Shown in pieces: positions 13,001 to 35,524 of a stretch of DNA of 39,788 nt. The notes under the pieces are model-generated. The model had not been told where the DNA came from. It did not search any database and saw nothing but the letters and a program-made list of their open reading frames with translations. Numbering within the stretch: position 1 is the stretch's first letter; each line of letters opens with the position of its first letter. The DNA is from a virus. The position numbers and the translations under genes are program-made. The stretch lies in IMG/VR virus record IMGVR_UViG_3300035216_001220, positions 1-39,788 of that record. One strand, 5' to 3'.

Positions 13001-15171
13001 TTGGCGCGAGCTCAGGAGGTTCTTCCCCTAGTCCCATGAGGATCTATGTAAGAAACGCTAACAGCGCAAGTCCTTTTACTTTGAACAATCCTCCTTCAGC
13101 GGCTGACATTGGCTTAGGACAATTTAGCTACACAAGAAAGGTAGCAGACGGAGCATATGAGCTCGCAGGAGGAACCGCTAGGAGAAACAGAAACCGGATA
13201 TATGTTAATGGATTCTCTAAAGCAGGAGATGCCATACTCTACGCTGGTGACCTAAAAGTCGGAGCAGGAGAGGTAACTCCAGGATTTGATCAGTTAGATG
13301 ATAGATCAAAAGTATTTACTTGGGACGAAACAGCTGTAGATCTAGATGACGACGGTAACGTTATTCAGCAAGGATACTGGTACCTCGCAGTAGACACAAC
13401 AAATATCGACGAAGAGATAGTTGACGTTGATAACGATGGCTATCTTCTAAAGAAATTTGATTTTGCCTTTGAATTCAAATTGTCAGGAGGAGACGCGGTA
13501 GAAGACGAGATAAACCGCTCTCTAGACTTCATCTTTGATAGGTCTCCTATTAAAACTATCAGAGGCGCAGATAGAAGATTAGATAAGGAAAGAGTATATA
13601 AGCTCGTGTTTGAAGGTTTCTTGAGAGACCAAGGTGTTAGAAGACCTCAGCCCTACTATATCCTAGAGAAGCAGGCGGGAGTTGATGGCGGTGTGATAAA
13701 TGCCGGTAATGACTTACTGAACGATCCTTTAACGGTTACTCAAGTACTGACTTATAATCAATATTATAAGATTACCGACGATAGCAAAGACGGACAGGCC
13801 AACCTTGGTAAGTTTGTTGCGTATGTTACCCAAGGATCTAACGCAAGAGACGTCTTTACAGGGGATTTTGTACCCAGCTTAAATGCAGACGAACCAGAGT
13901 TAACAGAAGACCCTTCTAACTCTATAACTAAAATTGCCCTTAACCTACTAGGTAGTAGACCTGGAGTCGAATACTCTGTTAGCGCCCTTGCTCCTAGCAC
14001 GAGTCTTGTTAATATCTCTACTTCTGCAACGGCTCCTCCTGGATTCTTGGTAGAGACTAGACGACCTTCTGTAATTAGAGCCTCTGGGCACACATGGGAA
14101 TGGACCGGGTACCTTAACTACGATACTTCCTTCCCAGCTTTCCAAGGTGATCCCCTGGAACAAGATTTTGCCCTTGGCAAGATTATCGTTGAAGAAGTTG
14201 CCGGTAGAGTCTATGCCACTGGCATGAACGAAGAAGGTAATTATTATCTAGGTACTACCGTATTTGACCTAAGATCTGGTGAGCAGTTCTCTATACCTCT
14301 TAAGGCCGACAACGAGATCGGATCTGTTACAAACCAGGTGCTTAATAACGTAATCATCAAAGGAACCTTGCTAATGCAAGATGATTCTCAGATGGTCTTT
14401 GGGGACGACACTAAGGTTATCTTCAGCAATAGCACGACCTTCACAAGCACAGCTGGTGCGATCACAGCCCCTGCGGGCGGAACACCAGGACCCGGCGTAT
14501 ATGCCACAACAGAGAAAGCAGGGCTAGTAGAGTTAGCGACGGCCCAGGATATCAGAGGAGCGTTTGGAGCTGCTGTAGGTGTTTCTGCTAATGTTGCGGT
14601 GACTGCTTTAGACCTTGCAAATGAGCTTAAGTTCCGTCAAGAAAATCAAATCCAAGGAGATGTAGTAACTGGTGTTGTAGTTGGAGATGGGGTCCCGGTA
14701 GAAGCTCCTGGTGGTGATCCTCTTGACCCCAGCGATGACTTTATACCCAGAAAGATCTCTATTGGTCAAAACGTTGATCCTCCAACTGTTGCTAGTGGGT
14801 CTTATGTTGCTAATACTGGAGCTAATGTTGCATTCCAGTCTATTAAAGCAACTAAAGACATCTCAGCTTTTGATACAGTTGCGTTCTCTGACTCGAGATT
14901 GAAAGAAAATGTGATCTCTATTGATAACTCCTTAGAGAAACTAGAGAAGTTAGAGGGTGTCAGTTATAACTTTAAGATGTACCCAGAGCAACAAAGAATT
15001 GGTTTGATTGCTCAAGACGCCGGAAAAGTCTTCCCCGAGCTTCTAAGGACCGACGAGCAAACAGGAATGTATAACCTAGCTTACAATGACCTGATCCCTG
15101 TTCTTATTGAGTCTATAAAAGAGCTTAGCGCAAAAGTTAAGATCTTAGAAGAAAAGTTAAATGACTACTAA
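10048..15171 (+). CDS. Giant tail fibre with beta-helix region and self-cleaving S74 chaperone
   Basis: 1707 residues. The N-terminal third resembles fibre attachment and shaft sequence. Residues about 345-425 hold a Cys-bearing patch (CNPK, LSCGG, GECPDGQP, GKCYKE, DRCTKIG). From about 430 the sequence IIYVDPAAGNDQ, NEPFRTIERALLEA and TVIELAPGDYYV is the standard opening of a right-handed parallel beta-helix (pectin-lyase type). The C-terminus is a peptidase S74/endosialidase intramolecular chaperone: SDSRLKENV, then YNFKMYPEQQ, RIGLIAQDAGKVFPEL and a closing coiled coil. Ser1614 and Lys1619 match the catalytic pair of that family, with cleavage expected before Ser1614 to release about 94 residues after trimer folding. 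The next gene starts inside its last codons. Function confident, receptor unknown. Confidence 0.9.
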   Translation: MLDKITFVNGTIVTSDYLNEVQKGTDFSGATPRADYYSVSAADHNSWKVSQRDKLKDYEIANPREEQETGIGRLAHDGIILGYPGTATVGWVLNDATFSEPKTLTIAVGDNNTISVVDSGQTHGLIVEAGKITLSDGTIGTWPRQIVGLIDETGQAFIYANEITANGVLSVQITISSSLPSPESNPYVPLAEINTVAGAFSTDAEGAVYGTGVKDLRPNLYVGALNNYSTGVLKNTDILNVNANLRGWDRAIVDTRNGSVIVTLPSSSSDNDRIAIVDLEGSFDRYPVVLRPSGTDKINNSVDDWIINIRDAHIELFYHEATSEWRFEETPGSECNPKLGSFLSCGGKEYIGMRTAGECPDGQPIPGAYPNPSEGVYRFEAASGKCYKEVSGVTAIYSNGEGGLIKVFGADRCTKIGNNGVSAGSEIIKNIIYVDPAAGNDQLINNGTNQNEPFRTIERALLEASRASRRNIGLDAYDTTVIELAPGDYYVDNSPGLNAVGGPGAGDTYIKQVSTGFTALNSWSVDLPYITIKADDSASLQPPSLFNLGRTLYTAAGGMGTIYKIEKDALASPIWRVYLQYVQGAFSVGEELRINRLSDYNPSSGGLVVPRGISINGVDLRKVRIRPMYVPELTPGSNVAQRNITYIFKVTGGTYISLITFTDNQQFSRTHNTVTAIGYASEAEIKGGAGETSYYTKIQSLFGGIDGWGIDKTIGAVSAETTIVAPLASSKENRSEDREENQTGVASPDYQVNVKPSYPGPAVLSASEGGTTNYFALPDVNSTRSSSPYVFNCSVRSIFGLNGMWIDGSRVSGFKSMVSANYTQVSLQTDPDCFETPSLEYYNDPPRNKSGDGGKRYRECFADKFKYRHFGFRASYDAQVQLVSCFVIGNADHFISENGSDLSITNSCSDFGDISLRAIGYKESAFSQDGAQPKGIYTGTRLTQVIPPIPLSYNTLSNGRDATLEDINVNTGLVIEYSQTLKYVLGASSGGSSPSPMRIYVRNANSASPFTLNNPPSAADIGLGQFSYTRKVADGAYELAGGTARRNRNRIYVNGFSKAGDAILYAGDLKVGAGEVTPGFDQLDDRSKVFTWDETAVDLDDDGNVIQQGYWYLAVDTTNIDEEIVDVDNDGYLLKKFDFAFEFKLSGGDAVEDEINRSLDFIFDRSPIKTIRGADRRLDKERVYKLVFEGFLRDQGVRRPQPYYILEKQAGVDGGVINAGNDLLNDPLTVTQVLTYNQYYKITDDSKDGQANLGKFVAYVTQGSNARDVFTGDFVPSLNADEPELTEDPSNSITKIALNLLGSRPGVEYSVSALAPSTSLVNISTSATAPPGFLVETRRPSVIRASGHTWEWTGYLNYDTSFPAFQGDPLEQDFALGKIIVEEVAGRVYATGMNEEGNYYLGTTVFDLRSGEQFSIPLKADNEIGSVTNQVLNNVIIKGTLLMQDDSQMVFGDDTKVIFSNSTTFTSTAGAITAPAGGTPGPGVYATTEKAGLVELATAQDIRGAFGAAVGVSANVAVTALDLANELKFRQENQIQGDVVTGVVVGDGVPVEAPGGDPLDPSDDFIPRKISIGQNVDPPTVASGSYVANTGANVAFQSIKATKDISAFDTVAFSDSRLKENVISIDNSLEKLEKLEGVSYNFKMYPEQQRIGLIAQDAGKVFPELLRTDEQTGMYNLAYNDLIPVLIESIKELSAKVKILEEKLNDY

Positions 15172-21134: not shown

Positions 21135-21872
21135 ATGCCGGAAAACATCCTTTTAGTCTCAGACATCCACTCGCGAGATGATGCTCTTCCCCGGCTCATA
21201 GACAGTCTCTCTGCCCAACTCAACAACAAAGCCCACCTTGTTTTTCTAGGGGACTTAAATGATTGCAGAGATAAATCCTATCAAGATAAGTGCAGCTTTC
21301 AAAAGATCTACACCTTAGTTCGTCAGTTATGCGACGAAGGCTACGCCACCCTAGTCCATTCAAATCATTCACAAAATCTTTGTGACCACTATATTGGTCG
21401 AAGAAAAGTAAGAAAGAACATAATGGGGTTCAAGCACACCTTAGCAGAACTAGATGAATTAGAGGAGACATATAGAGAAGATATGATAGAGTGGCTGGAT
21501 ACCAGACCCCTCGGAGTAAGTTATACCCTAAATAACGGAAAGCATTACCATATTGCTCACGCGTACCACGACCGAAATTTAGACTACAGCGCTCCCTCTC
21601 TACTATCTCCTGACGAAGTCAATCGTACCCTAAGAGGGATAAAAACTAGCTGGCTTTACCAGGGTAAAAAATATAGCAAACACATCGGCTTCTGGCGTAA
21701 TCCCAAGAAACGAGGAGCAGTTGATAACCATGTTTTATGTGCAGGACATTGGGAACAAGTGATTGTTACCGATAATTGTGTAGTTAATGACCCAGGTGGC
21801 CACGAAACTAACGGAAGGATCGGAGTCTACAACGCTTTACAAAATGATATTACTATTTACGAAAACAAATGA
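21135..21872 (+). CDS. Calcineurin-like metallophosphoesterase
   Basis: 245 residues. The order of metal-binding motifs fits the PPP-type phosphoesterase fold: D10-x-H12 (LLVSDIHSR), G39-D40 with Asn/Asp (VFLGDLNDCRD), N77-H78 (VHSNHSQN, in place of GNHE), then a later His in YHIAHAYHD (about 141) and GH in LCAGHWEQ (about 201). It would hydrolyse a phosphoester using two metal ions; targets of phage members include protein phosphates, diadenosine polyphosphates and RNA or DNA ends. The stop overlaps the nrdB start by 4 bases (ATGA), so translation is coupled. Substrate unknown. Confidence 0.82.
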   Translation: MPENILLVSDIHSRDDALPRLIDSLSAQLNNKAHLVFLGDLNDCRDKSYQDKCSFQKIYTLVRQLCDEGYATLVHSNHSQNLCDHYIGRRKVRKNIMGFKHTLAELDELEETYREDMIEWLDTRPLGVSYTLNNGKHYHIAHAYHDRNLDYSAPSLLSPDEVNRTLRGIKTSWLYQGKKYSKHIGFWRNPKKRGAVDNHVLCAGHWEQVIVTDNCVVNDPGGHETNGRIGVYNALQNDITIYENK

Positions 21873-22864
21873 CAAGTATACTAGAACACGATCCAATGCT
21901 ATTCAAGAAAGACGGAGGTTTTGACTTCCCAGAGTTCTATGAATATTATGAGAAGGCGGTGGCCAGCGTATGGCGCCATCAAGAGGTAGCCATGGAGTCC
22001 GATCTTCGCGATTGGCAGTTCAACTCAACCCCAGAGGAGCGTAACGTTATCGCCGGGATCCTCAAGGGGTTTGTTAGTGCAGAACTAGGTATCGGCTGCT
22101 ATTGGGCTGATAAGGTCTGTTCTATTTTCCCTAAGCCAGAGATCCAATCTATGGCCCGTGCATTTAGCTTCTTTGAAACAATCCATGCCGGAGCCTATTC
22201 TTATCTCAACGATATCTTAGGTCTTGATGAGTATGACCAGTTCATCAACGATGAAATTGCACGGAGAAAAGTCGAAACTTTCTTTAGTTCCTACTCCGAT
22301 AAGGTCTCCCTAGGAGTGTTTTCTGGTGCAGGAGAAGGAGTAAGTCTATTTAGCTCTTTTTCGGTACTCTTAAGCTTCAATAAGGACGGCAGGTACAAGG
22401 GTTTAAGCCAAATCATTTCATGGAGCGCTATTGACGAACAGATCCACTCAGAAGCTGGGTGTAAATTATTCAGATATCTTGTAGAAGAGACTGGCTTATC
22501 TGCAGAGGAAGAAGAGGCCGTTTATGAGGGTTTCAGATTAGTGGTTGACAACGAAGAAGCTTTCATAGATAATATCTTTAATGGTTACAAGCTAACCACT
22601 ATAGACGCCCAAGAGTTGAAGGCTTACATAAGGAATCGTGCAAACGAGCGCCTTCTTCAACTTGGGCTTGATCAAATTTTTAAACTCTCTACCGAAGAGT
22701 TATCTAAAGCAAAATCTATTGCAGCATGGTTTGATCCTACAATCAGGGGTGCAAGTAGCCATGACTTCTTCGCTCAGTCTAAAGATGGATCAAACTACAC
22801 TGCTAAGATCTCTCAAGATTTTATGTCAGTGGACTTATCCACTCTAGAACTAGCACTTGTATGA
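21869..22864 (+). CDS. nrdB: Ribonucleotide reductase class I small subunit (beta)
   Basis: 331 residues, somewhat short for NrdB. It generates and stores the radical that the alpha subunit uses to reduce ribonucleotides. The di-iron ligands can be placed: E72 (SAELGIG), E103 and H106 (ETIHAGAY), E156 (GAGEGVSLF), E190 and H193 (DEQIHSEAG). Tyr110 stands four residues after H106, as in the E. coli radical site (E-x2-H-x3-Y), so it should be a Tyr-radical enzyme. It overlaps the phosphoesterase upstream and a 48-residue ORF downstream by 4 bases each. The partner nrdA follows after small ORFs and an HNH gene. Confidence 0.92.
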   Translation: MTSILEHDPMLFKKDGGFDFPEFYEYYEKAVASVWRHQEVAMESDLRDWQFNSTPEERNVIAGILKGFVSAELGIGCYWADKVCSIFPKPEIQSMARAFSFFETIHAGAYSYLNDILGLDEYDQFINDEIARRKVETFFSSYSDKVSLGVFSGAGEGVSLFSSFSVLLSFNKDGRYKGLSQIISWSAIDEQIHSEAGCKLFRYLVEETGLSAEEEEAVYEGFRLVVDNEEAFIDNIFNGYKLTTIDAQELKAYIRNRANERLLQLGLDQIFKLSTEELSKAKSIAAWFDPTIRGASSHDFFAQSKDGSNYTAKISQDFMSVDLSTLELALV

Positions 22865-23007: not shown

Positions 23008-23125
23008 AGTGAACCAAGAGCTCCTAAAACAGGCAACAGGAGCACTATATTTAATCACAGATCCTAGATCAGAAATCTTCTTAAAGAAAAATGAGCGACT
23101 ACAAAGTACCAGACGGGTGGTCTGA
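22988..23125 (+). CDS. Possible small ORF overlapping the HNH gene start
   Basis: 45 residues from the ATG at 22988 (MKPRTPEVNQELLKQATGAL...). It overlaps the previous ORF by 20 bases and the HNH endonuclease by 35. The amphipathic sequence is plausible and it fills an otherwise uncovered gap, but there is no ribosome binding site or family to confirm it. Confidence 0.35.
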   Translation: MKPRTPEVNQELLKQATGALYLITDPRSEIFLKKNERLQSTRRVV

Positions 23126-23450
23126 TTTTGCTGAACAATGGAAACAATGGAAAAAGTCTCCATATTCTGTAAGCAACAAGGGCCGGATCAAAAGAGACGG
23201 AGAGATCCGTGCTCCTAGAGATGATAGCCGAGGACATTATAGAGTCAATCTGACCTATGATGGCAAGAGAGAGGAACCTAAGATCCATCAGATGGTCATG
23301 GACCTCTTCGGCCCTTCTAAGCCCTCTGGTAGCCCTGTTATAATGCATAAGAACAATAACGGGCAAGACAATAAGATCTCCAACCTCAAATGGGGCACGA
23401 GACAACAAAACACTCAAGATGCCTATGACGACGGCCTCATTGACAAATAA
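23091..23450 (+). CDS. HNH endonuclease of the NUMOD4/HNH_3 type, likely homing
   Basis: 119 residues. The N-terminus (SDFAEQWKQWKKSPYSVSNK, then GRIKR) is the NUMOD4 signature seen in phage homing endonucleases. The HNH part gives IHQMVMDLFG, then IMHKNNNGQDNKISNLKWGT, then NTQDAYDDG. It nicks or cuts DNA at a site usually in a neighbouring conserved gene. Its place between nrdB and nrdA, both classic homing targets, suggests it spreads with the RNR locus. No intron is visible: nrdA and nrdB read through without interruption. Confidence 0.85.
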   Translation: MSDYKVPDGWSDFAEQWKQWKKSPYSVSNKGRIKRDGEIRAPRDDSRGHYRVNLTYDGKREEPKIHQMVMDLFGPSKPSGSPVIMHKNNNGQDNKISNLKWGTRQQNTQDAYDDGLIDK

Positions 23451-23511: not shown

Positions 23512-25422
23512 ATGACGCTACAGGTTCCTGAATGGATGAGCCAGGAAGCCGTTGATACATTGTCACGCGGTTATCTTTGGCAGGCAGAAACCCCACGAGG
23601 TATGTGGGAGAGGGTGGCTAATAATGCTGCCCGCATTTTAAAAAGAGATGACATTGGAGCAGATCTATTTGAGGCTCTATGGAATGGGTATATTGGTCTT
23701 GCGACTCCAGTAGCTGCTAACTTTGGAGTGCCACGAGGTCTTCCAATCTCTTGCTATTCTGTCCATCTATCTGACTCTGTGCAGTCTATCTACTCTCACT
23801 TAAAAGAGGTAGCAGCTCTGTCAAAGAATGGTGGAGGAGTGGGAGTTTACTTCGGGGACATCCGTCCAGCCGGAGCTCCCATCACTTCAGGTGGTAAGAG
23901 TACAGGAACTGTACCCTGGGCTCAGCAATATGACCTAGCTGCTAGCGTTGTGAGCCAGGGTGGAGTTAGGAGGGGCAGCTTTGCGATTTACATGCCGATC
24001 ACGCACCCAGACCTCCCTGAGATGCTAAGGTCAAAAGACCACTCTCAAGGAGACCCACGTAAGTTCATCGATAGTAATATCGCAGTTACGGTTGATGATG
24101 AGTTCATCAACTCTATGCTTGCTGGTGATTTAGATAAGCAGAAGCTCTTTGGAGATGTAATGAAGATCCGTATGGTTAGCGGGTCACCTTATATAGTATA
24201 TATTGACAATGCTAATAGACAAAACCCAGAGTGCTATGACCAACGAGGGCTGAAAGTCTCTACCTCTAATCTCTGTTCCGAGATCTTCTTACATACCGAC
24301 GAAAGCCACTCTTTTGTCTGTGTACTTAGCTCTCTTAACTTAGCAAGATATGAGCAGTGGAAAGATTGGAAAGCTCCTAACACAGGCAAGACTGTGCCGG
24401 AACTCGTCACCTACCTACTTGACGCCGTTGTGGAGGAGTTTTGCCATAAAGCCGAACGTTTGCCATCTATGGGACGAAGTGTACGTTTTGCCAGGAAATC
24501 AAGGGCGCTAGGCATCGGTACAATGGGACTTCATGCCCTTTATCAATCAAAAGGATATGCTTTTGAATCTAAAGAGGCTAGGAAGCTAAATATAGAATGT
24601 CATAAGTTCATCAAAGATAACGCAGAGAAGGCTTCTAAGCAGATGGCCAAGGAGTATGGTGAGCCCGAATGGTGCAAAGGCAACGGGATGCGACACACAC
24701 ATTTAATCGCCATAGCGCCGACTAGATCCAACTCTGTTATCAGCGGAGCAATCTCCCAAGGTATCGAGCCGATCGACGCGAACTACTACGTGGCAAAACA
24801 GGCTAAGGGTACGTTTATTAGGAAGAATCCTTATCTTGTTTCTTTACTGGAGGCTATTGACAGAAACACAGACGAAGTCTGGGAGAGCATCTTAGAGATG
24901 AGAGGATCAATCCAACATTTGAAGTTCTTGACCACAGACCAAAAGAAAGTATTCAGGACCGCAAGAGAGATTAATCAGTTCGAGCTTATCAAGCAAGCCG
25001 GTGACCGCCAGCCTTTTGTTTGCCAGGGCCAATCCCTTAACTTATTTGTAGATCCTGAGGCGGACCCTACGTATATCTTCAAGCTCCATCTCAGCGCTTG
25101 GAAGAGCGGGCTAAAGAGTTTATATTATTTAAAGAGCTCTTCTATTCTTGTTAAGAAGAAAGCGCCTAAAGTTGCAGAACAAAGAGTAAAGATAATCACA
25201 AAAGATGATTGTCCATACTGTGTAAGAGCAAAAGCACTTCTCTCCCAAAATGGCATTTCCTACCAAGAAATCGACAGAAAAAATGTTGAGGACTTTCCTT
25301 ATAAGACTGTTCCGCAGATCTGGCTTGATGGGGATTATGTCGGTGGGTATAACGAGCTCGTTGAAAAGCTCGAAGGGGTCGCTGAACCAGAGTACAAAGA
25401 ATGTGTTGCTTGTGAGGGATAG
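23512..25422 (+). CDS. nrdA: Ribonucleotide reductase class I large subunit with an internal glutaredoxin domain
   Basis: 636 residues. The core (about 1-545) lacks the N-terminal ATP-cone and is compact, as in several phage enzymes. Active-site Cys81 (ISCYSVHL), Asn253/Cys255/Glu257 (NLCSE) and Cys270 (FVCVLSS) match E. coli C225, N437/C439/E441 and C462. Tyr538-Tyr539 match the Y730-Y731 radical pair, and the loop APTRSNSVISGAISQGIEP is intact. Residues about 558-622 are a glutaredoxin: C567-PY-C570, TVPQIW and GGYNEL. The chain ends ECVACEG; C631 and C634 fit the redox tail that normally ends NrdA, so the glutaredoxin sits between core and tail. It would reduce the enzyme in cis. The partner is nrdB. 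Confidence 0.93.
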   Translation: MTLQVPEWMSQEAVDTLSRGYLWQAETPRGMWERVANNAARILKRDDIGADLFEALWNGYIGLATPVAANFGVPRGLPISCYSVHLSDSVQSIYSHLKEVAALSKNGGGVGVYFGDIRPAGAPITSGGKSTGTVPWAQQYDLAASVVSQGGVRRGSFAIYMPITHPDLPEMLRSKDHSQGDPRKFIDSNIAVTVDDEFINSMLAGDLDKQKLFGDVMKIRMVSGSPYIVYIDNANRQNPECYDQRGLKVSTSNLCSEIFLHTDESHSFVCVLSSLNLARYEQWKDWKAPNTGKTVPELVTYLLDAVVEEFCHKAERLPSMGRSVRFARKSRALGIGTMGLHALYQSKGYAFESKEARKLNIECHKFIKDNAEKASKQMAKEYGEPEWCKGNGMRHTHLIAIAPTRSNSVISGAISQGIEPIDANYYVAKQAKGTFIRKNPYLVSLLEAIDRNTDEVWESILEMRGSIQHLKFLTTDQKKVFRTAREINQFELIKQAGDRQPFVCQGQSLNLFVDPEADPTYIFKLHLSAWKSGLKSLYYLKSSSILVKKKAPKVAEQRVKIITKDDCPYCVRAKALLSQNGISYQEIDRKNVEDFPYKTVPQIWLDGDYVGGYNELVEKLEGVAEPEYKECVACEG

Positions 25423-25496: not shown

Positions 25497-25958
25497 ATGC
25501 TTGACTACGCTGAATTTATCGAAGAAGGCTACCAGCACCAGCAGAAATATGCTAAAGCTGCCGGCCAGATTGGTCCGCTTGACGGACTAAGTCCTGAGCA
25601 ACGCCACGGTAAAGTAATCGAGCACATCGGCCACCTCATTGAAGAGACTATAGAAGCCAGGGTTTACGTTCCCAGGCGTAGTTGGAAAAACAATGAGCCA
25701 TCTTTCTTAGACTCTGATGAACTTCGCGAGGAGTTTGTCGCAGAGATGTTTGACATCCTCCTATTCCATAGAGCAGCACTTGCTTATGCTGGGATCCGCG
25801 GAGACGAGTTTGAGAGGATCGCCGCAAAGAAAATGAACTACAACTCTAAAAGGAAAGACCATAACGTAAATGGTACTGAATCTGCATCTCAAAACCCGGC
25901 TGAAGAGCTCCAAGGCAACTGTGCTTCGGCAGACTTTAGTAAAGATGAAAAAAACTGA
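25497..25958 (+). CDS. All-alpha NTP pyrophosphatase (dUTPase/dCTPase or MazG-like)
   Basis: 153 residues. The pattern EHIGHLIEETIEARVYVPRR, then SWK, then EFVAEMFDILLFHRAALAYA, GDEF and KMNYNSKRKDH follows the dimeric all-alpha NTP pyrophosphatase superfamily. The E-E-x3-E and E-x2-D motifs bind magnesium; the closing KM-x2-N-x3-K clamps the phosphates. Members hydrolyse dUTP, dCTP or other NTPs to the monophosphate. Placed between RNR and a thymidylate-synthase-family enzyme, it most likely feeds dUMP or dCMP to the latter, like T4 gp56. A Ser/Asn-rich tail (about 125-153) is extra. Superfamily confident, substrate not. Confidence 0.82.
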   Translation: MLDYAEFIEEGYQHQQKYAKAAGQIGPLDGLSPEQRHGKVIEHIGHLIEETIEARVYVPRRSWKNNEPSFLDSDELREEFVAEMFDILLFHRAALAYAGIRGDEFERIAAKKMNYNSKRKDHNVNGTESASQNPAEELQGNCASADFSKDEKN

Positions 25959-26130
25959 CAAAAGTAACGGAACAGAATATAGAGCATTTGGGCCAACCAA
26001 GTGTCACTACTGCGATGGCAGAGGATTTCAAATAATTCAATGCACTACTCTAGAAGGAAAGATACTACCTAACTTGGTAGAAGAATGCGAATGGTGTAAT
26101 GAAACAGGCGTGCTTAACCGAAATCAGTAA
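25945..26130 (+). CDS. Mini zinc-finger protein (DnaJ-like CxxC pairs)
   Basis: 61 residues from the ATG at 25945, which overlaps the previous gene by 14 bases; the frame is open further upstream but that part lies inside the pyrophosphatase gene and is not expected to be used. Two pairs of Cys, TKCHYCDGRGFQ and EECEWCNETGVL, follow the C-x2-C-x-G-x-G style of DnaJ zinc modules and probably bind one zinc. Many phage proteins of this size use such a knuckle for RNA, DNA or protein contacts. Partner unknown. Confidence 0.65.
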   Translation: MKKTDKSNGTEYRAFGPTKCHYCDGRGFQIIQCTTLEGKILPNLVEECEWCNETGVLNRNQ

Positions 26131-26593
26131 GTTGGCTAGAGAGCAAATCCTTGTTCTCAACGCCTCATATGAACCAATAAACATCACTTCTTGGAAAAGA
26201 GCTTTTGTTCTCTTACTCAAAGAGAAAGCCCTGGTTATTAGCCAGAAGGTTATCCGCTTGGTCAATTTTATTAAGATCCCTTTTAATAAGATGATGAGAG
26301 CAAAGCCTAGTAGGAGTTCCATCTACGCAAGAGACAATAATAAGTGTCAGTACTGTGGCTCTACTAGAAGACTCACAATAGATCACGTCTTGCCTAAATC
26401 AAAAGGAGGGACAGACGACTGGGATAACCTAGTTGTTGCATGCTCCTCTTGTAATACAAAGAAAAGCGATAAACTGCTAGAGCAGAGCGGGTTAAAACTG
26501 ACTAGAAGGCCAGCAAAGCCAAGGACTCACCTAGATCTTACTATTTTTCAAACCAAGTGCGAAGAATGGAAAGAATATTGCTTTATAGTTTAA
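26099..26593 (+). CDS. HNH endonuclease (cyanobacterial/McrA type)
   Basis: 164 residues from the ATG at 26099; a TTG at 26132, directly after the previous stop, would give a start nearer to the family's usual beginning (AREQILVLNASYEPINITSW). The HNH core has C-x2-C zinc pairs and catalytic residues: NKCQYCGS, LTIDHVLPKSKGG, WDNLV and ACSSCNTKKSDK. This architecture, an ILVLN-x-SYEP leader followed by HNH, is common in cyanobacteria and their phages. It may be a free-standing homing or DNA-processing nuclease. Its role next to dNTP genes is unknown. Confidence 0.85.
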   Translation: MKQACLTEISKLAREQILVLNASYEPINITSWKRAFVLLLKEKALVISQKVIRLVNFIKIPFNKMMRAKPSRSSIYARDNNKCQYCGSTRRLTIDHVLPKSKGGTDDWDNLVVACSSCNTKKSDKLLEQSGLKLTRRPAKPRTHLDLTIFQTKCEEWKEYCFIV

Positions 26594-27065: not shown

Positions 27066-27088
27066 GGGGCCTTTGAGCCCCATTTTTT
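27066..27088 (+). terminator. Terminator between convergent genes
   Basis: Stem GGGGC (27066-27070), loop CTTTGA, stem GCCCC (27077-27081), then ATTTTTT. It ends the riboswitch operon and sits directly at the stop of the convergent methyltransferase gene. Confidence 0.82.
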
Positions 27089-28304
27089 ATACGCCCCAGA
27101 TAGGCTCCATTGTTTTCTTAGAGACTACGTTAGATTGACGTAAGATCTTTGGAGTGCCATCGGCTTTGAGCTCAGGCTCGATCCAATCACGGTTGCCATC
27201 GAGAGCCGCTGCGACTTCGCTGATCCAGTCTCCAGCGGTGCAAGCGGGAACGTTCTGACAGATGACATTAGAGTTCTTGGAGTCCACTTGGACTTTCTTA
27301 TTGAACTCGTAGGGGAAACCCATCATACCCAAGGCCTCAGACGTATTGAGCCAGCGGTCCTCGTATGGGTGCATGAGCATCGGGAGCGTCTTCCACATCA
27401 AGCTCTGGGTCCTATGCCAGGCGAGCTTCATAGAGCCATCCATGATATTCTTGCCAGCCGCTTTCTTATCGCGAGTATAATTCAACCATCTATTCATCCT
27501 CTCGTCTTGAACGGCTACGCAAGCCTCATCTAACCACCCAGAGTTATAGATAACTTCCCATACACTCACCATCTTCTTGGCCGCTACAATGGACAATATG
27601 TCTTGAGTTGTAGATCCCCTGTACTTCTCTTGGATGAACCTCCAGAGGTGGTCGTCAGAGGGTTTGGTGCCTTTCGTGTTAACAAATGGGCTTGGGGAAA
27701 ACTCTCCCTCTTTTATGAACTGGTGAAAAGGTTTATAGCTTTTGTTGATAGGTCTTAACATAGGCACTTTCTTACCTTTCCATAGGAAAAAGAAACTGCG
27801 GGTCCTCTCTTGAGGCACCCCATGCTTGATTGTTGACGTCTTAACTAGACTCATCGTATAATCATGTTCCTGTGCAAGCCTGTTTATCCGCTCAGCAAAC
27901 TCTTCTCCCATCTTTGAGAAAAGAGTGGGTGCGTTCTCCACCATCATTGCCTTAGGCTTTAGGTGGGTCATAGCGTACTCCGACGCATGTACCATGTGCA
28001 TATTGCTGGGAGCCTGGCATCCTCTGGGGTTGTTAGCCGTATCACCACTCGTGGTGTTAGCCATACTCAACCCAGCGCATGGAGGCAAAGATGTTACGAT
28101 ATCTACGTATTTCTTTGGATAAGCGCCCTCATCTAAATTGAAAAATGGGACTTCTGAAAAGTATTTTAGACAAAATGAATCGTTCAGACCGAAAGTATCA
28201 GACCATGATGCAATCCACTCTGGATCACGACCGAGAGCAATGGTTGTGCCTACAGCCGATCCACCAACCAAAGGAATTATATGACCGTGAGAAAAACTAC
28301 TCAT
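27087..28304 (-). CDS. DNA cytosine-C5 methyltransferase
   Basis: 405 residues from the ATG at 28304; the frame is open to 28379, but the extra part is low-complexity and overlaps the divergent gene. Methyltransferase motifs in order: S-adenosylmethionine site PLVGGSAVGTTIALG; catalytic loop SLPPCAGLSMAN with Cys76; ENAP (123-126, usually ENV); HGVPQERTRSFFF (Q165-E-R-T-R169); a recognition domain; then LNTSEALGMMGFPYEF and QNVPACTAGDWI (usually GN-x-VPP). The catalytic PPC is intact but Ala replaces the usual Gln after it. It transfers methyl groups to cytosine C5, protecting phage DNA or altering host DNA. No matching restriction enzyme is clear, though an HNH protein stands head to head with it. 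Confidence 0.85.
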   Translation of the reverse strand: MSSFSHGHIIPLVGGSAVGTTIALGRDPEWIASWSDTFGLNDSFCLKYFSEVPFFNLDEGAYPKKYVDIVTSLPPCAGLSMANTTSGDTANNPRGCQAPSNMHMVHASEYAMTHLKPKAMMVENAPTLFSKMGEEFAERINRLAQEHDYTMSLVKTSTIKHGVPQERTRSFFFLWKGKKVPMLRPINKSYKPFHQFIKEGEFSPSPFVNTKGTKPSDDHLWRFIQEKYRGSTTQDILSIVAAKKMVSVWEVIYNSGWLDEACVAVQDERMNRWLNYTRDKKAAGKNIMDGSMKLAWHRTQSLMWKTLPMLMHPYEDRWLNTSEALGMMGFPYEFNKKVQVDSKNSNVICQNVPACTAGDWISEVAAALDGNRDWIEPELKADGTPKILRQSNVVSKKTMEPIWGV

Positions 28305-28360
28305 AATATTGACATTTACTTCGATCTTTAGACTGAATGAACTCAGTTTAAAGTAGAGGG

Positions 28361-28368
28361 AGATAATG
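28361..28368 (+). promoter_or_regulatory. AGATAATG box upstream of the large HNH protein
   Basis: AGATAATG lies 9 bases before the ATG at 28378; the identical octamer lies 10 bases before the GTG of the virion gene at 35553 (35535-35542), and AGATAAATG precedes the late gene starting at 9400. It may be part of a phage late promoter. Based on three sites only. Confidence 0.3.
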
Positions 28369-28377
28369 CTATAGAGC

Positions 28378-30066
28378 ATGAAAGACGATATTAATTACGA
28401 AGCCCCGAGTGATTGGGGCGTTTCTTCAAAAACAGAATGGGTTAGTCATAGCGAGCTGACAGATAACGGAGCACCGACGTTAGAAGGCAAAGATGTTGTC
28501 GGTTTTATAGAATTTGCTCAAATTAAACTTGCTCCAGGCAAACCTCCTGGGGCTACGTCTTGGCGTTCTGTAGATAACAAGCCAGTACAACTAGACCCAT
28601 CTACAAAACGCTGGAGATATTCTCAAGTAAAGCCTAAAAAGCCTGTAGAGCAGCAGAAGCAAGGTACTACTGCTGAGAGGTACAAGAAAGGATTCGAGAA
28701 AGCAAAAGCTTCAGGGCAGATTCCAGAAAGGTCCTTAGACGAACCTATGGAGTCAGAAAGCGTAAAAAAACAAGCAACAGAAGTTAACAAAAGAAAACAG
28801 CCTAAGCCTTCAAAAGAACAAGAACAAAAAGAATTTAATAAAAAAGGATATCTTTCAGAGATGGTGAAGTCGATAATGGCAGACAACACTGCTGGAAGGG
28901 GAGCCGGTAAATACGAGTTATCTAGAGAAGATATGGAAACTTATCTAGGTTATTTAGATGGCAATAAACCCACTATTCCTTCTTACGATATTTCAGATGA
29001 AGACGTTGACGAAGTAATCTCTCAGATTAAGGGGATTGTAGGCAAGGGAAAACCGTACGCTCAATTTGTATCTAAGCTGGGAAGAAAGGGTGATCCGCCT
29101 AGAAATCTTGTTAACGTTGCTAGAGGAAGAGCCGTTCTCCAACATTATCTCTCTACAGGTGGCATTAGCGCAATTACGGGAGAAAAAATCCCGTTCTCTG
29201 ATTCTCAGTTAGATCATAGGCTTTCTTTAGATAACGGCGGTATCGATGGCCCTGCAAACTGGGAGTGGGTAGAGGCAAGATTTAATCAATTTAAGCAGGC
29301 CTTTACAGATGAGACCGTAAAGGAAAAATTAAAAAATGGGCTCGCAAAGTCTCCTTTGGAAGATAAAAGAAAAGCTCTACAAAATGAGATTAAAAATATA
29401 TCTAGAAGCTCTTACAAAGATCACTTCAAGGCTAACGGTTTTGAAGGAATAGCCCTGGAAGATATTAATAGTGCAAAGGGAGCGAAAGGTGAACAACTAC
29501 TTAAAGCAATGGCAGAAGTTGCCGGCGTTTCAAGATATCAAGAGGGTGCTCAAAGAGATTCGGGCCGAGCAGGCGGGGGTAGATTTATTGGCTATCCTGC
29601 TCTAAAGCAAAAACTAATTGATAGAATTCAGCCTTTAGAAAGAAACAAAATTACTAAAGTCGATGAAGGGTTGATTAAGATCTCTAATCAGATTAGATCT
29701 AAGGAAGGAGAGGTTAAAGAGATCTCTTCTCAGATCAAAAAAGAAAAAGTAGATAACCGTAAAAAAGCTAAAGCTAATATGACCGAGATGGATTATCTCG
29801 AGTTAATTAAGTTATCTCGCAGCCCCGAATATGCCGATTCTATGGTATATTATAGGGGTAAAGCCTTAGGACGTTGTCCTGCAGGTACTACAAAAGTTGG
29901 CAAGACGTGCGCTCCGGTTCAAAAAGAAGAAGCTGGGCGTAAGTATAATAAAAACGTACTTGGTGGGCTATCAAGGCAACAAGTAGCCAGGCTCTCCAAG
30001 GCGAAATCTACCGAGCAGATTATAGAAGCTCACAAAGAAAAGACAAAGAAAAAAACAGATGATTGA
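28378..30066 (+). CDS. Large phage protein with an HNH-like centre, function unknown
   Basis: 562 residues. The N-terminal 85 residues (PSDWGVSSKTEWVSH, APGKPPGATSWRSVDN) are followed by a long charged linker rich in Lys, Glu and Gln. About residues 255-310 hold an HNH-type nuclease motif: ISAITGEKIPFSDSQLDHRL, SLDNGG, then NWEWVEARFNQFKQ (His near 279, Asn near 284 and 293). A coiled-coil-like stretch (QIRSKEGEVKEISSQIKKEK) follows near 440, then GRCPAGTTKVGKTCAPV near 500, a Cys pair seen in other cyanophage proteins, and a basic tail. It could be a nuclease used in packaging or homing, or a structural protein with an inserted HNH. It overlaps the next gene by 8 bases. Confidence 0.7.
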   Translation: MKDDINYEAPSDWGVSSKTEWVSHSELTDNGAPTLEGKDVVGFIEFAQIKLAPGKPPGATSWRSVDNKPVQLDPSTKRWRYSQVKPKKPVEQQKQGTTAERYKKGFEKAKASGQIPERSLDEPMESESVKKQATEVNKRKQPKPSKEQEQKEFNKKGYLSEMVKSIMADNTAGRGAGKYELSREDMETYLGYLDGNKPTIPSYDISDEDVDEVISQIKGIVGKGKPYAQFVSKLGRKGDPPRNLVNVARGRAVLQHYLSTGGISAITGEKIPFSDSQLDHRLSLDNGGIDGPANWEWVEARFNQFKQAFTDETVKEKLKNGLAKSPLEDKRKALQNEIKNISRSSYKDHFKANGFEGIALEDINSAKGAKGEQLLKAMAEVAGVSRYQEGAQRDSGRAGGGRFIGYPALKQKLIDRIQPLERNKITKVDEGLIKISNQIRSKEGEVKEISSQIKKEKVDNRKKAKANMTEMDYLELIKLSRSPEYADSMVYYRGKALGRCPAGTTKVGKTCAPVQKEEAGRKYNKNVLGGLSRQQVARLSKAKSTEQIIEAHKEKTKKKTDD

Positions 30067-30340: not shown

Positions 30341-31183
30341 ATGTCTATGGCCCTTTCTTTTGACCAACAATACACCAGGATTGCCAAAGAGATCCTTGAG
30401 GATGGTGTGGAGGTCGTAGGTCGCAACAATCTGCGTTACAAGCAAGTATTCGGACAGACAATCAAGATCGATCTAAGGGACGGGTTCCCCGCTCTGTCCC
30501 TACGCAAGATGCCTGTGAAGAACCTCTTCAGAGAGTTCATGTGGGACATCAATGGAAACTATGAAGTCAGTAACCTTGGGCCTGCAAAACATTTCTGGGA
30601 CTTCCTCGCCGATGCAGAAGGACGTCTGGCTGGTGCCTATGGACGTAGCTGGAGAGCTTTCCCCAAGGTTTGCCCTGAACAACACATGGAGTGGGAGAAC
30701 TTCCGTGACGGACCTTTTGACCAGCTTAAGTGGATCCATCAGCAACTCAGGACCAGCCCGACTAATCGTCAGCTCGTTCTTCAGACTTTTAACCCTGCTT
30801 ATCAGTCTCTCCATTGCCCTCCTTGTCATCCTAACATCACTTTTTCTAGCGATGGGACTTTCCTTGACATTCTCGTAAACGCAAGATCCAACGACATGGC
30901 CACTGGGGTACCTTTGGATATGTTCAGATACGGACTCCTCTGTACCAAGATGGCACAAGACGCTCTCCTAACTCCTAGGTTTGTGATGTTTGCCTCTGCT
31001 AACAATCACATCTATTCCCAAAACGAAGAAGCTATCTCTGAGATCATCAGGAACTTCCCCATGGGAAAATGTGGCGTTGTCATGAACAACCTCAAGACAA
31101 TCTTTGATCTAGATCCAGAGACCGACTTTGAACTCGTAGGATATAGTTCTCATAAAAACGTTAAGATGGAGGTGGCTAATTGA
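30341..31183 (+). CDS. Thymidylate synthase family enzyme, predicted dCMP (hydroxy)methylase
   Basis: 280 residues. Fold and active site are of the ThyA/T4 gp42 family: FREFMWDINGN (E. coli Glu58 region), GAYGRSWRAFP, catalytic Cys162 in CPPCHPNITF, RSNDMATGVPLDMF (Arg182 onward) and NNHIYSQN. The residue aligned with Asn177 of E. coli thymidylate synthase is Asp193 (R-S-N-D-x3-G-x3-D). Asp at this point is what T4 dCMP hydroxymethylase has, and the Asn-to-Asp change is known to shift thymidylate synthase from dUMP to dCMP. I therefore expect 5-hydroxymethyl- or 5-methyl-dCMP as product. The alternative is an ordinary but unusual thymidylate synthase. The stop overlaps the TTG start of the exonuclease by 4 bases. 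Confidence 0.88.
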   Translation: MSMALSFDQQYTRIAKEILEDGVEVVGRNNLRYKQVFGQTIKIDLRDGFPALSLRKMPVKNLFREFMWDINGNYEVSNLGPAKHFWDFLADAEGRLAGAYGRSWRAFPKVCPEQHMEWENFRDGPFDQLKWIHQQLRTSPTNRQLVLQTFNPAYQSLHCPPCHPNITFSSDGTFLDILVNARSNDMATGVPLDMFRYGLLCTKMAQDALLTPRFVMFASANNHIYSQNEEAISEIIRNFPMGKCGVVMNNLKTIFDLDPETDFELVGYSSHKNVKMEVAN

Positions 31184-32433
31184 TACACTACGATCATACA
31201 GAGACCCTCCTAGAAGACATCTTCGAGGTAAAGACAACACCGCTCTTACCCATATATGTTGTTGACTTTAAAGTCGCTGCTCACTTCATCAATGGGTTTT
31301 ACGAGATTGCAGAGGATATAGCTCAAGGCGATCAGGAACTGCTTAAGAACATCATCAAAGCTATGTGGGCCTATAAGTTAAACCGTGGGCCTGACATGCT
31401 CGACCCCTTTGACTTTGTAGCGGTAATCGCGGACGATTATAAAGGACCCGTGGGCGATGACGCCTCGGTGAATGGAAAGGGCTACTGGCGCCATATCGAG
31501 GCCCATAAGCTCAAGATGCAAGAGTACAAAGCTGGTCGTGCTCCTAAGAAAGATAACTTTATCTTTGTTCAAGATATAGGATACGAGTATATTGACAGCA
31601 AAAACTCAAGCTTTCATTACTTCTCAAAGGAGTACTTTGAAGCCGACGACATCGCTGGTAAGATCGCACGAATGAAGCGTAACTCTTCTAAGCGCTCTAA
31701 GCTTGGCAAACGACAAGTCCTCCTTGGCACTCTTGACGGAGACTGGCAAGGGATTGTCTCAAATAAAGAAGAGATCCTTTGGTGTAACACAGGGCCTTGG
31801 CTACCTCGTATGAGAGGAGACGCTGAGGTTGTTGATTACTACCTTCGTAAAGAAGGACTAAAGATTAAAGAAGCAAAAGAATGCTACACCGTTAAAGTAG
31901 AAGTCGGCGACATTGGCGATGGCTTACTCCCTGGCTCACCACTACGATTTTTTGACCTTTATGACGAAGATGATACTTGGTATTTTTCAGAAAAAGATAC
32001 CTCTTACTTATCAAAAGTACTTAAGTCTAACGATAGATCAAACAGGCCGGATCACTTTGAATCCGCTAAGAAATTCCTCTTATCTCAAGGGATGTACCTC
32101 CCTGAACTCTCTAAGACTAACGACCACGACAAGAAGCTTTTCTTTCAAAAAGCCAAGAGGATCCGAAGAGAAAAGTCGAATCCCGAGCTCAAAGGTAGGA
32201 ATAAAAAGCTTTGTTTGGAGGCTCCTAAGATTGATTTTGAGAAGTGCAAAGACCTTGTTGTCAGGGACGAAGACACTAAGCAGAAGATCAAGTACGAAGA
32301 GCAGAACCTTAAAGACTGCAAAGAAGATAAGCTTTGTAAAAAAGCCGTGAGGCAAGCAATACAAGCTTATAAGACTCTACGTGAAGATATAAAGGAAAAG
32401 CTTAAATCATTCTCGGCCCATGACTCAGTTTAA
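31180..32433 (+). CDS. 5'-3' exonuclease of the FEN/T4 RNase H type
   Basis: 417 residues from a TTG start that overlaps the previous stop (TTGA). The PIN/FEN nuclease core is visible: PIYVVDFKVAAHF, the acid pair in VAVIADDYKG, FEADDIAGKIA (Glu154, Asp156, Asp157), GTLDGDWQGIV (about 185) and VGDIGDGLLPGSP (about 244, the helix-hairpin-helix entry). The C-terminal 150 residues are very rich in Lys and Glu with scattered Cys and are not recognised. It would remove RNA primers or 5' flaps at the replication fork and fits its place before the helicase and primase genes. Confidence 0.8.
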   Translation: MIHYDHTETLLEDIFEVKTTPLLPIYVVDFKVAAHFINGFYEIAEDIAQGDQELLKNIIKAMWAYKLNRGPDMLDPFDFVAVIADDYKGPVGDDASVNGKGYWRHIEAHKLKMQEYKAGRAPKKDNFIFVQDIGYEYIDSKNSSFHYFSKEYFEADDIAGKIARMKRNSSKRSKLGKRQVLLGTLDGDWQGIVSNKEEILWCNTGPWLPRMRGDAEVVDYYLRKEGLKIKEAKECYTVKVEVGDIGDGLLPGSPLRFFDLYDEDDTWYFSEKDTSYLSKVLKSNDRSNRPDHFESAKKFLLSQGMYLPELSKTNDHDKKLFFQKAKRIRREKSNPELKGRNKKLCLEAPKIDFEKCKDLVVRDEDTKQKIKYEEQNLKDCKEDKLCKKAVRQAIQAYKTLREDIKEKLKSFSAHDSV

Positions 32434-32648: not shown

Positions 32649-34526
32649 ATGCCAAGAAAAAAGCCAGAGAAAGAACACGACTCGGCGTTCGCTACATTGA
32701 CCCCGAGTACTCCGGCTGAGATGTACAACATCCTGACACCTTGGCTTCAGAAGAAAGGATGTATCTTGCGTTTTGATTACAGCGCAAAGCTTCAGAGTTA
32801 CCATAGCTTATACACCTGGGGAGATCCAACTCCTATCAAGGGTATTAAGTTCCCAAACGGGTTCTCTGTTGCAATGCCTGCTGATGAGAACTATCTACAA
32901 GGTATACAGAAGACTCTTCTTGGTATTGCAAACGGACAAGATGGAGACGGACTGACTGCAGAAGAAGCAGACTTTGCCCTACCTCTTGTAATCTATCGAC
33001 AAGGAAGAGCATCAGATATTGTTGATCATGTTCTGGGTCTCCAGACACTCAAAGCCCGTTACCATAAGAAGATGGGCGGAGGGCTATATGAGCAAGGGAT
33101 CGCATTTAAGCCAGAGACTACTCTAGGTAAGAACACCAGTGTTAGTCCGATCTTTGCTTACATCCCAGAGAAGTCTTGGTTCAAGAAAGAGATCCAAGAC
33201 CTAAAGTTTGAGGATATCGTAAAGATCTTTCCTAAGTACGAGGCCACTATGATGAAGTTGATTCTTGGCCGAGCTGTTGTTGGCCGTAGTGGTACCGTAC
33301 ACCCTGGCACAGCAGAGATCATAAACCACGGGTTCCGTAAGGCCGGAGTTGTTATCGGAGAACCTGGAGTAGGTAAGACGATCACTCTTAACGGAGTGCT
33401 AGATGCTATGAAGTATCTGGGGTATGAAGTCACAGCTATGGGAGACTTCGGCTCACGCTTCAATCAGGGAGAGATCATCACTTCTCACTTGGCTTACAAC
33501 GATGACCTTACAACGGAAGGTTTGAAGTCTATGCTTACAGCCCATAGCTTCAAGTCCGTTGTTACAGGAGGTACAGAAAGAGTTGAAAATAAAGGGACAG
33601 ACGCTGTTGAAGTCGTTGCAAACACGGTCATCTTGGCAAACTGCAACGAATGGAAACCTGAACTTACTTACGACTTAGACTCCGGTGCAATCTCTCGCTT
33701 GGCTCCTATTGCCACCTATCGATTATACGAACTTGAAGAAATGTCCGAAGAAGCCGGGCATGATCTCCACCCTGCTGCACACATTCGGTTTCTGTGCGAA
33801 AAGTACCAAGTAGATCCAAGGACTCTGTACATTAAGTTGCTACGCGATTGCGCAGATTTCTTTATTAGTAGATGCCAGGGAGAACAAGGAGAGGACATTC
33901 ACTTCTACTCAGAAGCCCTGCTCCCCTACATGAAGATCCAGATGCATAAAGCCGCGCTGGAGAGCTTCTTGAGGTTCATGCTCATTGCATATGCAATTCG
34001 TAAACGCTTAGGTAAAGGACTCTGGTTACCCGAGTTAACTCTGAATAGCTTTGAAGATGCTTACGAAGCAACAAGGTTCTTGATGATAGACAAGAGAGCG
34101 GACCATCTTCGCACCCTAATGAAGCAAGACTGGGAATACAATAATCGACCATCTCGGCATCCTTACTGGGCACAGAGGAAGCTTTTGATTACCTCAGTAG
34201 ATAAGGCTTGGGCCGCTCTTCAAGAATCCAAAGCAAGTAAAGATGTAGCTCTAAGTGTAGAGATGGTTCTAGATGTCCTCCGCCTCCGCGATGGATTTAA
34301 CATGGGTAAGAAGATGCCTTACGTTGTTCGGACTTGGGAGTCTGTGAAAGGTGAGTCAAAGAAGATCTATGCCCTTGCCGGAAGGCTTATCGATCAGATC
34401 TCTGAGGAAGAACGTAGTGTGATCTGTAACCCCATAACTGCATGTGATTCTCAGTGGCTATATGATCCAGATTACGACCCTAAAAAAGTGGGAGGGGGTA
34501 CCATGGCAAATTGTGACAATCAGTGA
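32649..34526 (+). CDS. Replicative helicase, SF3/D5-like AAA+ ATPase
   Basis: 625 residues. The ATPase core lies in the middle: Walker A GEPGVGKT (about 237-244), Walker B as LAYNDDL (about 280-286), a conserved NTVILANCNEW (about 325, motif C of SF3 helicases with its Asn) and a finger SGAISRLAP (about 348). The order and spacing fit superfamily 3 or D5-type helicases, which unwind DNA as hexamers at the fork. The N-terminal 230 residues could hold an origin-binding or hexamer-forming domain but no motif is seen. It has its own strong promoter and is followed at once by the candidate primase. SF3 assignment is from motifs; another AAA+ replication ATPase is possible. Confidence 0.78.
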   Translation: MPRKKPEKEHDSAFATLTPSTPAEMYNILTPWLQKKGCILRFDYSAKLQSYHSLYTWGDPTPIKGIKFPNGFSVAMPADENYLQGIQKTLLGIANGQDGDGLTAEEADFALPLVIYRQGRASDIVDHVLGLQTLKARYHKKMGGGLYEQGIAFKPETTLGKNTSVSPIFAYIPEKSWFKKEIQDLKFEDIVKIFPKYEATMMKLILGRAVVGRSGTVHPGTAEIINHGFRKAGVVIGEPGVGKTITLNGVLDAMKYLGYEVTAMGDFGSRFNQGEIITSHLAYNDDLTTEGLKSMLTAHSFKSVVTGGTERVENKGTDAVEVVANTVILANCNEWKPELTYDLDSGAISRLAPIATYRLYELEEMSEEAGHDLHPAAHIRFLCEKYQVDPRTLYIKLLRDCADFFISRCQGEQGEDIHFYSEALLPYMKIQMHKAALESFLRFMLIAYAIRKRLGKGLWLPELTLNSFEDAYEATRFLMIDKRADHLRTLMKQDWEYNNRPSRHPYWAQRKLLITSVDKAWAALQESKASKDVALSVEMVLDVLRLRDGFNMGKKMPYVVRTWESVKGESKKIYALAGRLIDQISEEERSVICNPITACDSQWLYDPDYDPKKVGGGTMANCDNQ

Positions 34527-34537
34527 TAGGGGGTATT

Positions 34538-35524
34538 ATGAATAACATTCTTGTTTCAATTGACGAAGAAAACTGGGATCACAAGCCAAGTGTTAAGCTT
34601 CAGTATAAAGATTGGATAGATAAGTTTGGCAACCCTCGCACAGAGGTGAGTGTTATTGGAGCACGTATGGGCTCTAATATCGATAAAATCTCTCCAACTT
34701 CTCTTGCTAGAGCTATCTCTCAAGGGAGGACTTGGTCACCGTTTGTATTTAACGAGTGTCCACATTGGAAACGCCCTCGTCGTATCGAAACACTTTTTAA
34801 GTCTTGCCAAGTATTTGCTATTGATTTTGATAATGGAGAATCCACTGAACAGATTAAAGATCGTGCTAAAGAACTCGGGATTGGGTTCACGATTATTCAC
34901 AACAGCTTCTCGAGTACAGAAGAGTTTCCAAAGCATCGCGGAATCGTATTCACAGAAGAAAAGATTACAGACTTTGAAGAAGCTAAGAGATTCTCTATTG
35001 CCCTAGCTTATGCTTTTGAGGGCGATAAGCAATGTATTGACGTCGCACGACTCTACTTTGGATCTAAGCCCGACTCTATCATTGAGGTGAACAAAAATGC
35101 TACAGTATCTATCGAGAAGCTTCAAAGCCTTGCGAAAGAGATCAACGCAGATCAGTACCTTGTTAAAGTTGCAGAGAGGGGAGCCGAGAAACCAGAGGCT
35201 ACGCACTGGGGAGATTCTGCTGCTCAGAAGAACATTCTGCACAGGCTCAGCAAATCAAAGCAGACATATGTACGTAAGAAGGCTATTGCCATTCTTAAGG
35301 AAGTAGAGGTATTCGATGGATCTAAGGGGTCTAGGTACGAATGTGTATGGAGAAACACATCTAGGTTGGCCAGGATGCCTGAACTCGTGGGATCAGCCGT
35401 GTATCAATGGATGACCGACTCTATAAAGAAGAACCCTTACTTCAACGATTGGGACTGGGAGCCAGAAGGGGTTGTGATGAACGCAATCAAATGGAGCATT
35501 GACCATTCTGACGATCCAGTTTAA
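34538..35524 (+). CDS. Candidate DNA primase of the archaeo-eukaryotic (AEP) type
   Basis: 328 residues from the ATG at 34538, chosen because it has a ribosome binding site (AGGGGG, 34528-34533); a GTG at 34523 would overlap the helicase. The order of motifs fits AEP primases: Asp96-F-Asp98 in VFAIDFDNGES (metal binding), a Ser-rich turn and KHR in FSSTEEFPKHRGIVF (about 125-140, the sxH motif), and a third block CIDVARLYFGSK (about 165-175). The C-terminal half carries a long helical region with no clear motif. It would lay down primers for the SF3 helicase next to it, a pairing common in plasmids and viruses. A different nucleotidyltransferase cannot be excluded. Confidence 0.65.
   Translation: MNNILVSIDEENWDHKPSVKLQYKDWIDKFGNPRTEVSVIGARMGSNIDKISPTSLARAISQGRTWSPFVFNECPHWKRPRRIETLFKSCQVFAIDFDNGESTEQIKDRAKELGIGFTIIHNSFSSTEEFPKHRGIVFTEEKITDFEEAKRFSIALAYAFEGDKQCIDVARLYFGSKPDSIIEVNKNATVSIEKLQSLAKEINADQYLVKVAERGAEKPEATHWGDSAAQKNILHRLSKSKQTYVRKKAIAILKEVEVFDGSKGSRYECVWRNTSRLARMPELVGSAVYQWMTDSIKKNPYFNDWDWEPEGVVMNAIKWSIDHSDDPV

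Follow-up and report, generated by a model that had tools for sequence, protein, structure and literature searches.

The window analysed here, a 39,788-base virus record from IMG/VR, encodes a protein of the thymidylate synthase (TS) family with Asp at the position that decides between dUMP and dCMP. Which nucleotide does this enzyme act on, and which group does it add? We propose, with a probability of about 0.7, that its product is a dCMP 5-hydroxymethylase derived from within the TS family, which feeds hydroxymethylcytosine, plain or glucosylated, into the phage DNA. The gene and the codons considered below are as follows.

30341..31183, + strand: TS-family gene, predicted dCMP 5-hydroxymethylase (ORF, PF00303, AlphaFold2 model, Foldseek)
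30605..30607, + strand: Leu89 codon (E. coli Trp83; T4 Val85), folate-site and solvent-gate position (residue table; role per PMC6400193)
30767..30772, + strand: Arg143-Gln144 codons (E. coli Arg126-Arg127), partner-subunit phosphate site (alignment)
30815..30817, + strand: Cys159 codon (E. coli Leu143; T4 gp42 Asp145, water-activating) (residue table)
30824..30826, + strand: catalytic Cys162 codon (E. coli Cys146) (invariant alignment column)
30917..30919, + strand: Asp193 codon, GAT in the window (E. coli TS Asn177; T4 gp42 Asp179), cytosine-specifying residue (alignment, residue tables)

A full-length thymidylate synthase homologue

The open reading frame starts with ATG at 30341, ends with TGA at 31183 and yields a product of 280 aa, which matches Pfam PF00303 (Thymidylat_synt) along its whole length with an E-value of 2e-50. 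The NCBIfam TS models also match, and the counterparts in relatives of cyanophage S-TIM5 are labelled ThyA or thymidylate synthase in GenBank. The AlphaFold2 model has a pLDDT of 87.9. Foldseek searches with this model returned TS structures first (TM about 0.86-0.93), and the Lactobacillus casei TS mutant N229D with dCMP (1njc) was among the matches. Comparison of the family profile with T4 gp42 gave a probability of 98%. The catalytic set is kept, comprising Cys162, Arg143 (R126 in E. coli), Arg182, Ser183, Asp185, His223, Tyr225, Glu65, Trp86 and Tyr100, and the protein has both the fold and the catalytic Cys, Arg, Asp, His and Tyr of the TS superfamily. Judged from the alignment, the 280-aa protein is a full-length TS homologue with all catalytic residues present and Asp193 at the dUMP/dCMP-deciding position.

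The first-pass annotation had described a motif R182-S183-N184-D185-x3-G189-x3-D193 and had equated its last residue with E. coli N177 and T4 gp42 D179; the alignment confirmed both points. Its reading of NRQLV as the loss of one Arg at the phosphate site was also right, as R143 corresponds to the retained E. coli R126 and Q144 stands at R127.

The TS-family and primase genes of the window share 91-92% identity with their counterparts in cyanophages S-TIM5, S-TIM54, S-TIM61 and S-TIM66. Codon comparison with the S-TIM54 gene over 280 codons revealed 101 synonymous and 22 nonsynonymous differences, and the window gene is therefore under purifying selection.

Asp193 and linked substitutions

A scan of IMG/VR with the TS-family alignment returned 80 loci. 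Asp at the position of E. coli 177 defines two clades, the S-TIM5 clade with 77-93% identity to the window protein and a sister clade with 38-42%, which group together in the tree (support 100/98). All 35 sequences of these clades carry Asp, whereas all 43 ordinary TS carry Asn, so that the Asn of TS proper is missing from the window protein and from 35/35 clade members. Both GAT and GAC occur as Asp codons within each clade. Since Asp is found in 35/35 against Asn in 43/43 and both codons are used, Asp193 is neither a chance substitution nor a sequencing slip.

Asp is accompanied by a fixed package of changes, consisting of K48R, I79F, W83L, L143C, R127Q/H, Q165A, N168 and a C-terminal Asn, among which K48R, W83L, L143C, R127Q/H and N168 are common to the 35 Asp-type sequences. 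The column of E. coli 143 holds Cys in 35/35 Asp-type sequences, Leu in 43/43 TS and Asp in the T4-type and SPO1 enzymes. The column of E. coli 83 holds Leu in every Asp-type sequence covering it and Trp in 43/43 TS. Compared with E. coli ThyA (PF00303), the window protein shares the fold (TM about 0.86-0.93), the length, the C-terminal tail, His147 and the core catalytic residues, but the identity is 27% and the differences include Asn177Asp, Lys48Arg, Trp83Leu, Leu143Cys, Arg127Gln, Gln165Ala, 168Asn and the C-terminal Asn.

The ARSND stretch together with Ala165 was considered as a mark of hydroxymethylases and rejected, as TS of the phi3T/B. subtilis type have both. The motif ARSNDMA alone is not diagnostic because the B. 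subtilis and phi3T ThyA proteins share this stretch; they differ from the window protein in keeping Asn177, Trp83, Leu143 and Lys48.

In the free tree gp42 stands apart from the cyanophage Asp clades, which suggested an independent origin of the Asp state, but a topology uniting them is not rejected by the AU test (p=0.606). The Asp state may therefore have either a common or a separate origin. The sister-clade genome G011 (IMGVR_UViG_3300035703_000020) carries two photosystem II genes with 93% identity to those of S-TIM5 and is, on this ground, a cyanophage; here a single small gene separates the DNA polymerase gene from the TS-family gene downstream.

The substrate is very probably dCMP

The first-pass annotation had favoured dCMP over dUMP, and three lines of evidence support this preference: the fixed Asp, published work on position 177, and the separate ThyX and dCMP deaminase of complete relatives. 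The exchange of Asn to Asp at the 177 position switches TS from dUMP to dCMP (PMC8670742). In phage metagenomes, Asp at this position is one of the two residues most associated with modified cytosine, and it marks modified contigs (PMC8670742). Asp is found in T4 gp42, MilA and BcmA, which act on cytosine substrates, and Asn in TS and in the SPO1 dUMP hydroxymethylase (PMC5175136). The window protein, with Asp, thus differs at 177 from the SPO1 enzyme gp29.

The complete TS fold, the full catalytic set and the GenBank labels ThyA and thymidylate synthase would also suit an ordinary TS in which Asp at 177 is tolerated without loss of the dUMP-to-dTMP reaction. However, Asp is absolutely conserved together with its linked changes, the known Asp enzymes use cytosine nucleotides, and dTMP already comes from ThyX in the relatives. 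All complete or near-complete relatives that were searched (S-TIM5, S-TIM54 and the 159-kb IMG/VR genome G005) have ThyX, as do the sister-clade genomes G011 and G020, and dCMP deaminase is carried by S-TIM5, S-TIM54 and G005. The dTMP supply is therefore already covered in the relatives. No second ThyA was found in the 21 IMG/VR records searched. An ordinary TS is thus highly improbable. That the substrate is dCMP is predicted with high confidence and is the best-supported element of our proposal.

The product: hydroxymethyl or methyl

The first-pass annotation had left the product open between hydroxymethyl and methyl. The hydroxymethyl group is now favoured by a homologue of the T4 DNA alpha-glucosyltransferase (AGT), by a gene of the 5-hydroxymethyl-dU DNA kinase family and by the absence of dihydrofolate reductase (DHFR), whereas the signature residue of the T4 enzyme is absent. 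This signature, derived from the T4 ternary complex, consists of Asp or Glu three residues before the catalytic Cys together with Ser-x-Tyr, and the mutation D145N abolishes the T4 hydroxymethylase activity (PMC6400193). The residue equivalent to T4 Asp145 is Cys159 in the window protein and Cys in 35/35 sequences. At the Ser-x-Tyr position the window protein has Gly-Ala-Tyr, which lacks the Ser as in the rest of its clade, and the sister clade has Ser-Ala-Tyr. Because the T4 signature is absent, the residues alone do not settle hydroxymethyl against methyl.

Comparison with T4 gp42 (PDB 1b49, 1b5d, 6a9b) revealed the same family, the cytosine-specifying Asp, the R-S-N-D motif, the catalytic Cys, Tyr96, Glu60 and the His/Tyr pair, and neither protein has Trp at E. 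coli 83. The identity is 22% only, however, and the window protein has Cys for Asp145, Gly for Ser94, a TS-like His147 in place of the T4 Thr, and a TS-like C-terminal tail. This tail, which ends in VAN, is missing from the T4 type. In TS the C-terminal tail seals the active site for methyl formation. On these residues, membership in the T4 gp42 type fails on the defining features, and the working likeness stands.

The TS residues W83 and L143 control solvent access (PMC6400193), and both are replaced in every Asp-type sequence covering those positions. A homologue of T4 AGT is encoded by S-TIM5; it matches PF11440 above the cut-off and T4 AGT in PDB with an E-value of 2e-14. T4 AGT acts on hydroxymethylcytosine. 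The S-TIM5 homologue is divergent from the T4 enzyme (PF11440) and carries an insertion, but the T4 residues H114-D115-H116, R204, E306 and E311 are kept and are invariant among the homologues; its acceptor is predicted only. Such homologues were found in S-TIM5, S-TIM54 and the IMG/VR genomes G005 and G027, and at 24 IMG/VR loci. The AGT/BGT-type glucosyltransferase expected of a T4-like hydroxymethylcytosine pathway is thus present in these four phages, its gene lying outside the 39.8-kb window fragment. Several S-TIM5-clade contigs lack AGT, and their gene positions indicate that they probably do not reach the genome end that carries it. A search for AGT in the sister clade found none. Two sister genomes, G011 (L153:18024-19202) and G023, encode a protein with PF18723, the helical domain of the 5-hmdU DNA kinase, which would be expected to need hydroxymethyl groups on the DNA. 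DHFR was found neither in 5 phage records nor in 8 Synechococcus/Cyanobium genomes, and these 8 host-type genomes also yielded no ThyA. A dihydrofolate-making reaction would therefore be costly.

The main rival reading is a reductive dCMP methylase, which would make 5-methyl-dCMP for 5-methylcytosine DNA as in phage Xp12 or L. casei TS N229D. The window protein is otherwise TS-like, with Asp177, a retained tail and no T4-type Asp145, and the Asn-to-Asp exchange alone turned TS into a dCMP methylase (PMC8670742). L. casei N229D (1njc), and presumably the Xp12 dCMP methylase, share this single switch with the window protein. However, N229D makes 5-methyl-dCMP, and the cyanophage family adds the solvent-gate changes and an AGT partner. 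In addition, a methylase would produce dihydrofolate, yet no DHFR was found in phages or host-type genomes; all 35 Asp-type sequences have lost W83 and L143; and the AGT homologue and the hmU-kinase-family gene of the relatives call for hydroxymethyl. We therefore consider the methylase unlikely and prefer the hydroxymethylase.

The hydroxymethylase might then represent a second route to cytosine hydroxymethylation, in which the TS tail is kept, Cys replaces Asp145 and the site is opened by the loss of Trp83 and Leu143, and which would serve a whole lineage of marine cyanophages with glucosylated hydroxymethylcytosine in their genomes, or with hydroxymethylcytosine tailored in another way in the sister clade. 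This wider proposal is tentative, with the odds slightly against it.

Neighbouring genes

The TS-family gene sits in a block of nucleotide and replication genes.

21869..22864, + strand: ribonucleotide reductase small subunit NrdB (PF00268, E=1e-50)
23512..25422, + strand: ribonucleotide reductase large subunit NrdA with a C-terminal glutaredoxin domain (PF02867, PF00462)
25497..25958, + strand: 153-aa possible all-alpha nucleotide pyrophosphohydrolase, weak dCTPase/dUTPase candidate (phrog_12184, E=4e-5)
27087..28379, - strand: DNA cytosine-C5 methyltransferase (PF00145, E=2e-14)
31180..32433, + strand: flap endonuclease-like replication gene (phrog_26716; annotated as flap endonuclease in S-TIM54)
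32649..34526, + strand: DNA primase, S-TIM5 type (phrog_25243, E=1e-275; 92% identity to the S-TIM5 group)

The first 4 bases of the flap endonuclease-like gene overlap the 3' end of the TS-family gene. The 153-aa protein shows a K-N-R-D pattern and a PRA-PH match below the cut-off. As a gp56-type dCTPase it is a weak candidate only, with an AlphaFold2 pLDDT of 55.8 and no support from Foldseek, PDB or hhalign.

The DNA C5-methyltransferase (27087-28379) has PPC, ENA and QERTR motifs and is conserved in S-TIM5-like contigs. It would be redundant if all cytosines were C5-modified, which suggests partial modification or another target. One refinement compatible with the hydroxymethylase is that the dCMP-derived nucleotide replaces cytosine only partially or is differently tailored, with a sugar or phosphate on hydroxymethylcytosine, and that the methyltransferase acts on the remaining plain cytosines. 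Besides the conserved methyltransferase in the same module, this would fit the lack of a clear dCTPase or dNMP kinase among the genes found and the different tailoring genes of the S-TIM5 and sister clades. A methyltransferase gene by itself is no proof of its activity, however, and we regard the refinement as possible but rather doubtful.

Several other genes of the window were recorded. The S-TIM5 version of the NrdA-glutaredoxin protein is of equal length, and NrdA is flanked by small HNH-type endonuclease genes (23091-23450 and 26099-26593), possibly homing endonucleases. The gene at 10048-15171 encodes a large tail-fibre-like protein with SDSRLKENV in its C-terminal region, which we take to resemble the S74 intramolecular chaperone domain. 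A 562-aa protein (28378-30066) has no Pfam or NCBIfam match and shows an HNH-like DH..N..W stretch; its S-TIM5 counterpart is annotated as a virion structural protein. In the replication block, a 333-aa protein (34523-35524) matched only phrog_25531 (unknown function), and weakly.

Proposed pathway

We propose a reaction scheme in which Cys162 probably attacks C6 of dCMP, as in the usual TS chemistry, while Asp193 would hold the cytosine and protonate it at N3/N4. 5,10-methylene-tetrahydrofolate would then donate a methylene group to C5, and in the final step water probably replaces hydride, giving 5-hydroxymethyl-dCMP and tetrahydrofolate. Meanwhile dTMP would be supplied separately by ThyX and dCMP deaminase. 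The modified nucleotide would be phosphorylated and then incorporated by the phage polymerase. In S-TIM5-type phages, the AGT-type enzyme would glucosylate the hydroxymethylcytosine and the genome would be shielded from host nucleases. Substrate, product, incorporation and glucosylation are all four deduced, and for AGT, ThyX and the deaminase, which lie outside the 39.8-kb fragment, we infer their presence from relatives about 90% identical over the TS-family and primase genes. Similar to these relatives, T4 has a separate dTMP-making enzyme, a dCMP deaminase and an AGT elsewhere in its genome. A scan of 38 proteins from the relatives, all with unknown or vague function, revealed no recognisable T4 gp1-like dNMP kinase. 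TET/JBP oxidation of 5-methylcytosine was considered as another source of the hydroxymethyl group and rejected, with no such family among the same 38 proteins.

Implications

The biochemical kind is already known from the T4 dCMP hydroxymethylase and AGT. A search of open-access papers, to which the original S-TIM5 paper does not belong, turned up no report of hydroxymethylcytosine or a dCMP hydroxymethylase in the S-TIM5 group; a prior mention is possible. Marine cyanophages related to T4 are listed without gene 42 in PMC2993671. Counts of TIM5-like phages have been made across the North Pacific (PMC8975747). S-TIM5, a close relative, is in culture, so that the claim is directly checkable.

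If the proposal is true, the ThyA annotation would be corrected, and the co-presence of ThyA-like and ThyX genes in these phages would be explained. A hydroxymethylase breaking the published residue signature would also bear on how the water step works. The DNA of this ocean cyanophage is thus probably disguised in a manner similar to that of phage T4, and a T4-style cytosine disguise would then exist in a widespread group of marine cyanophages.
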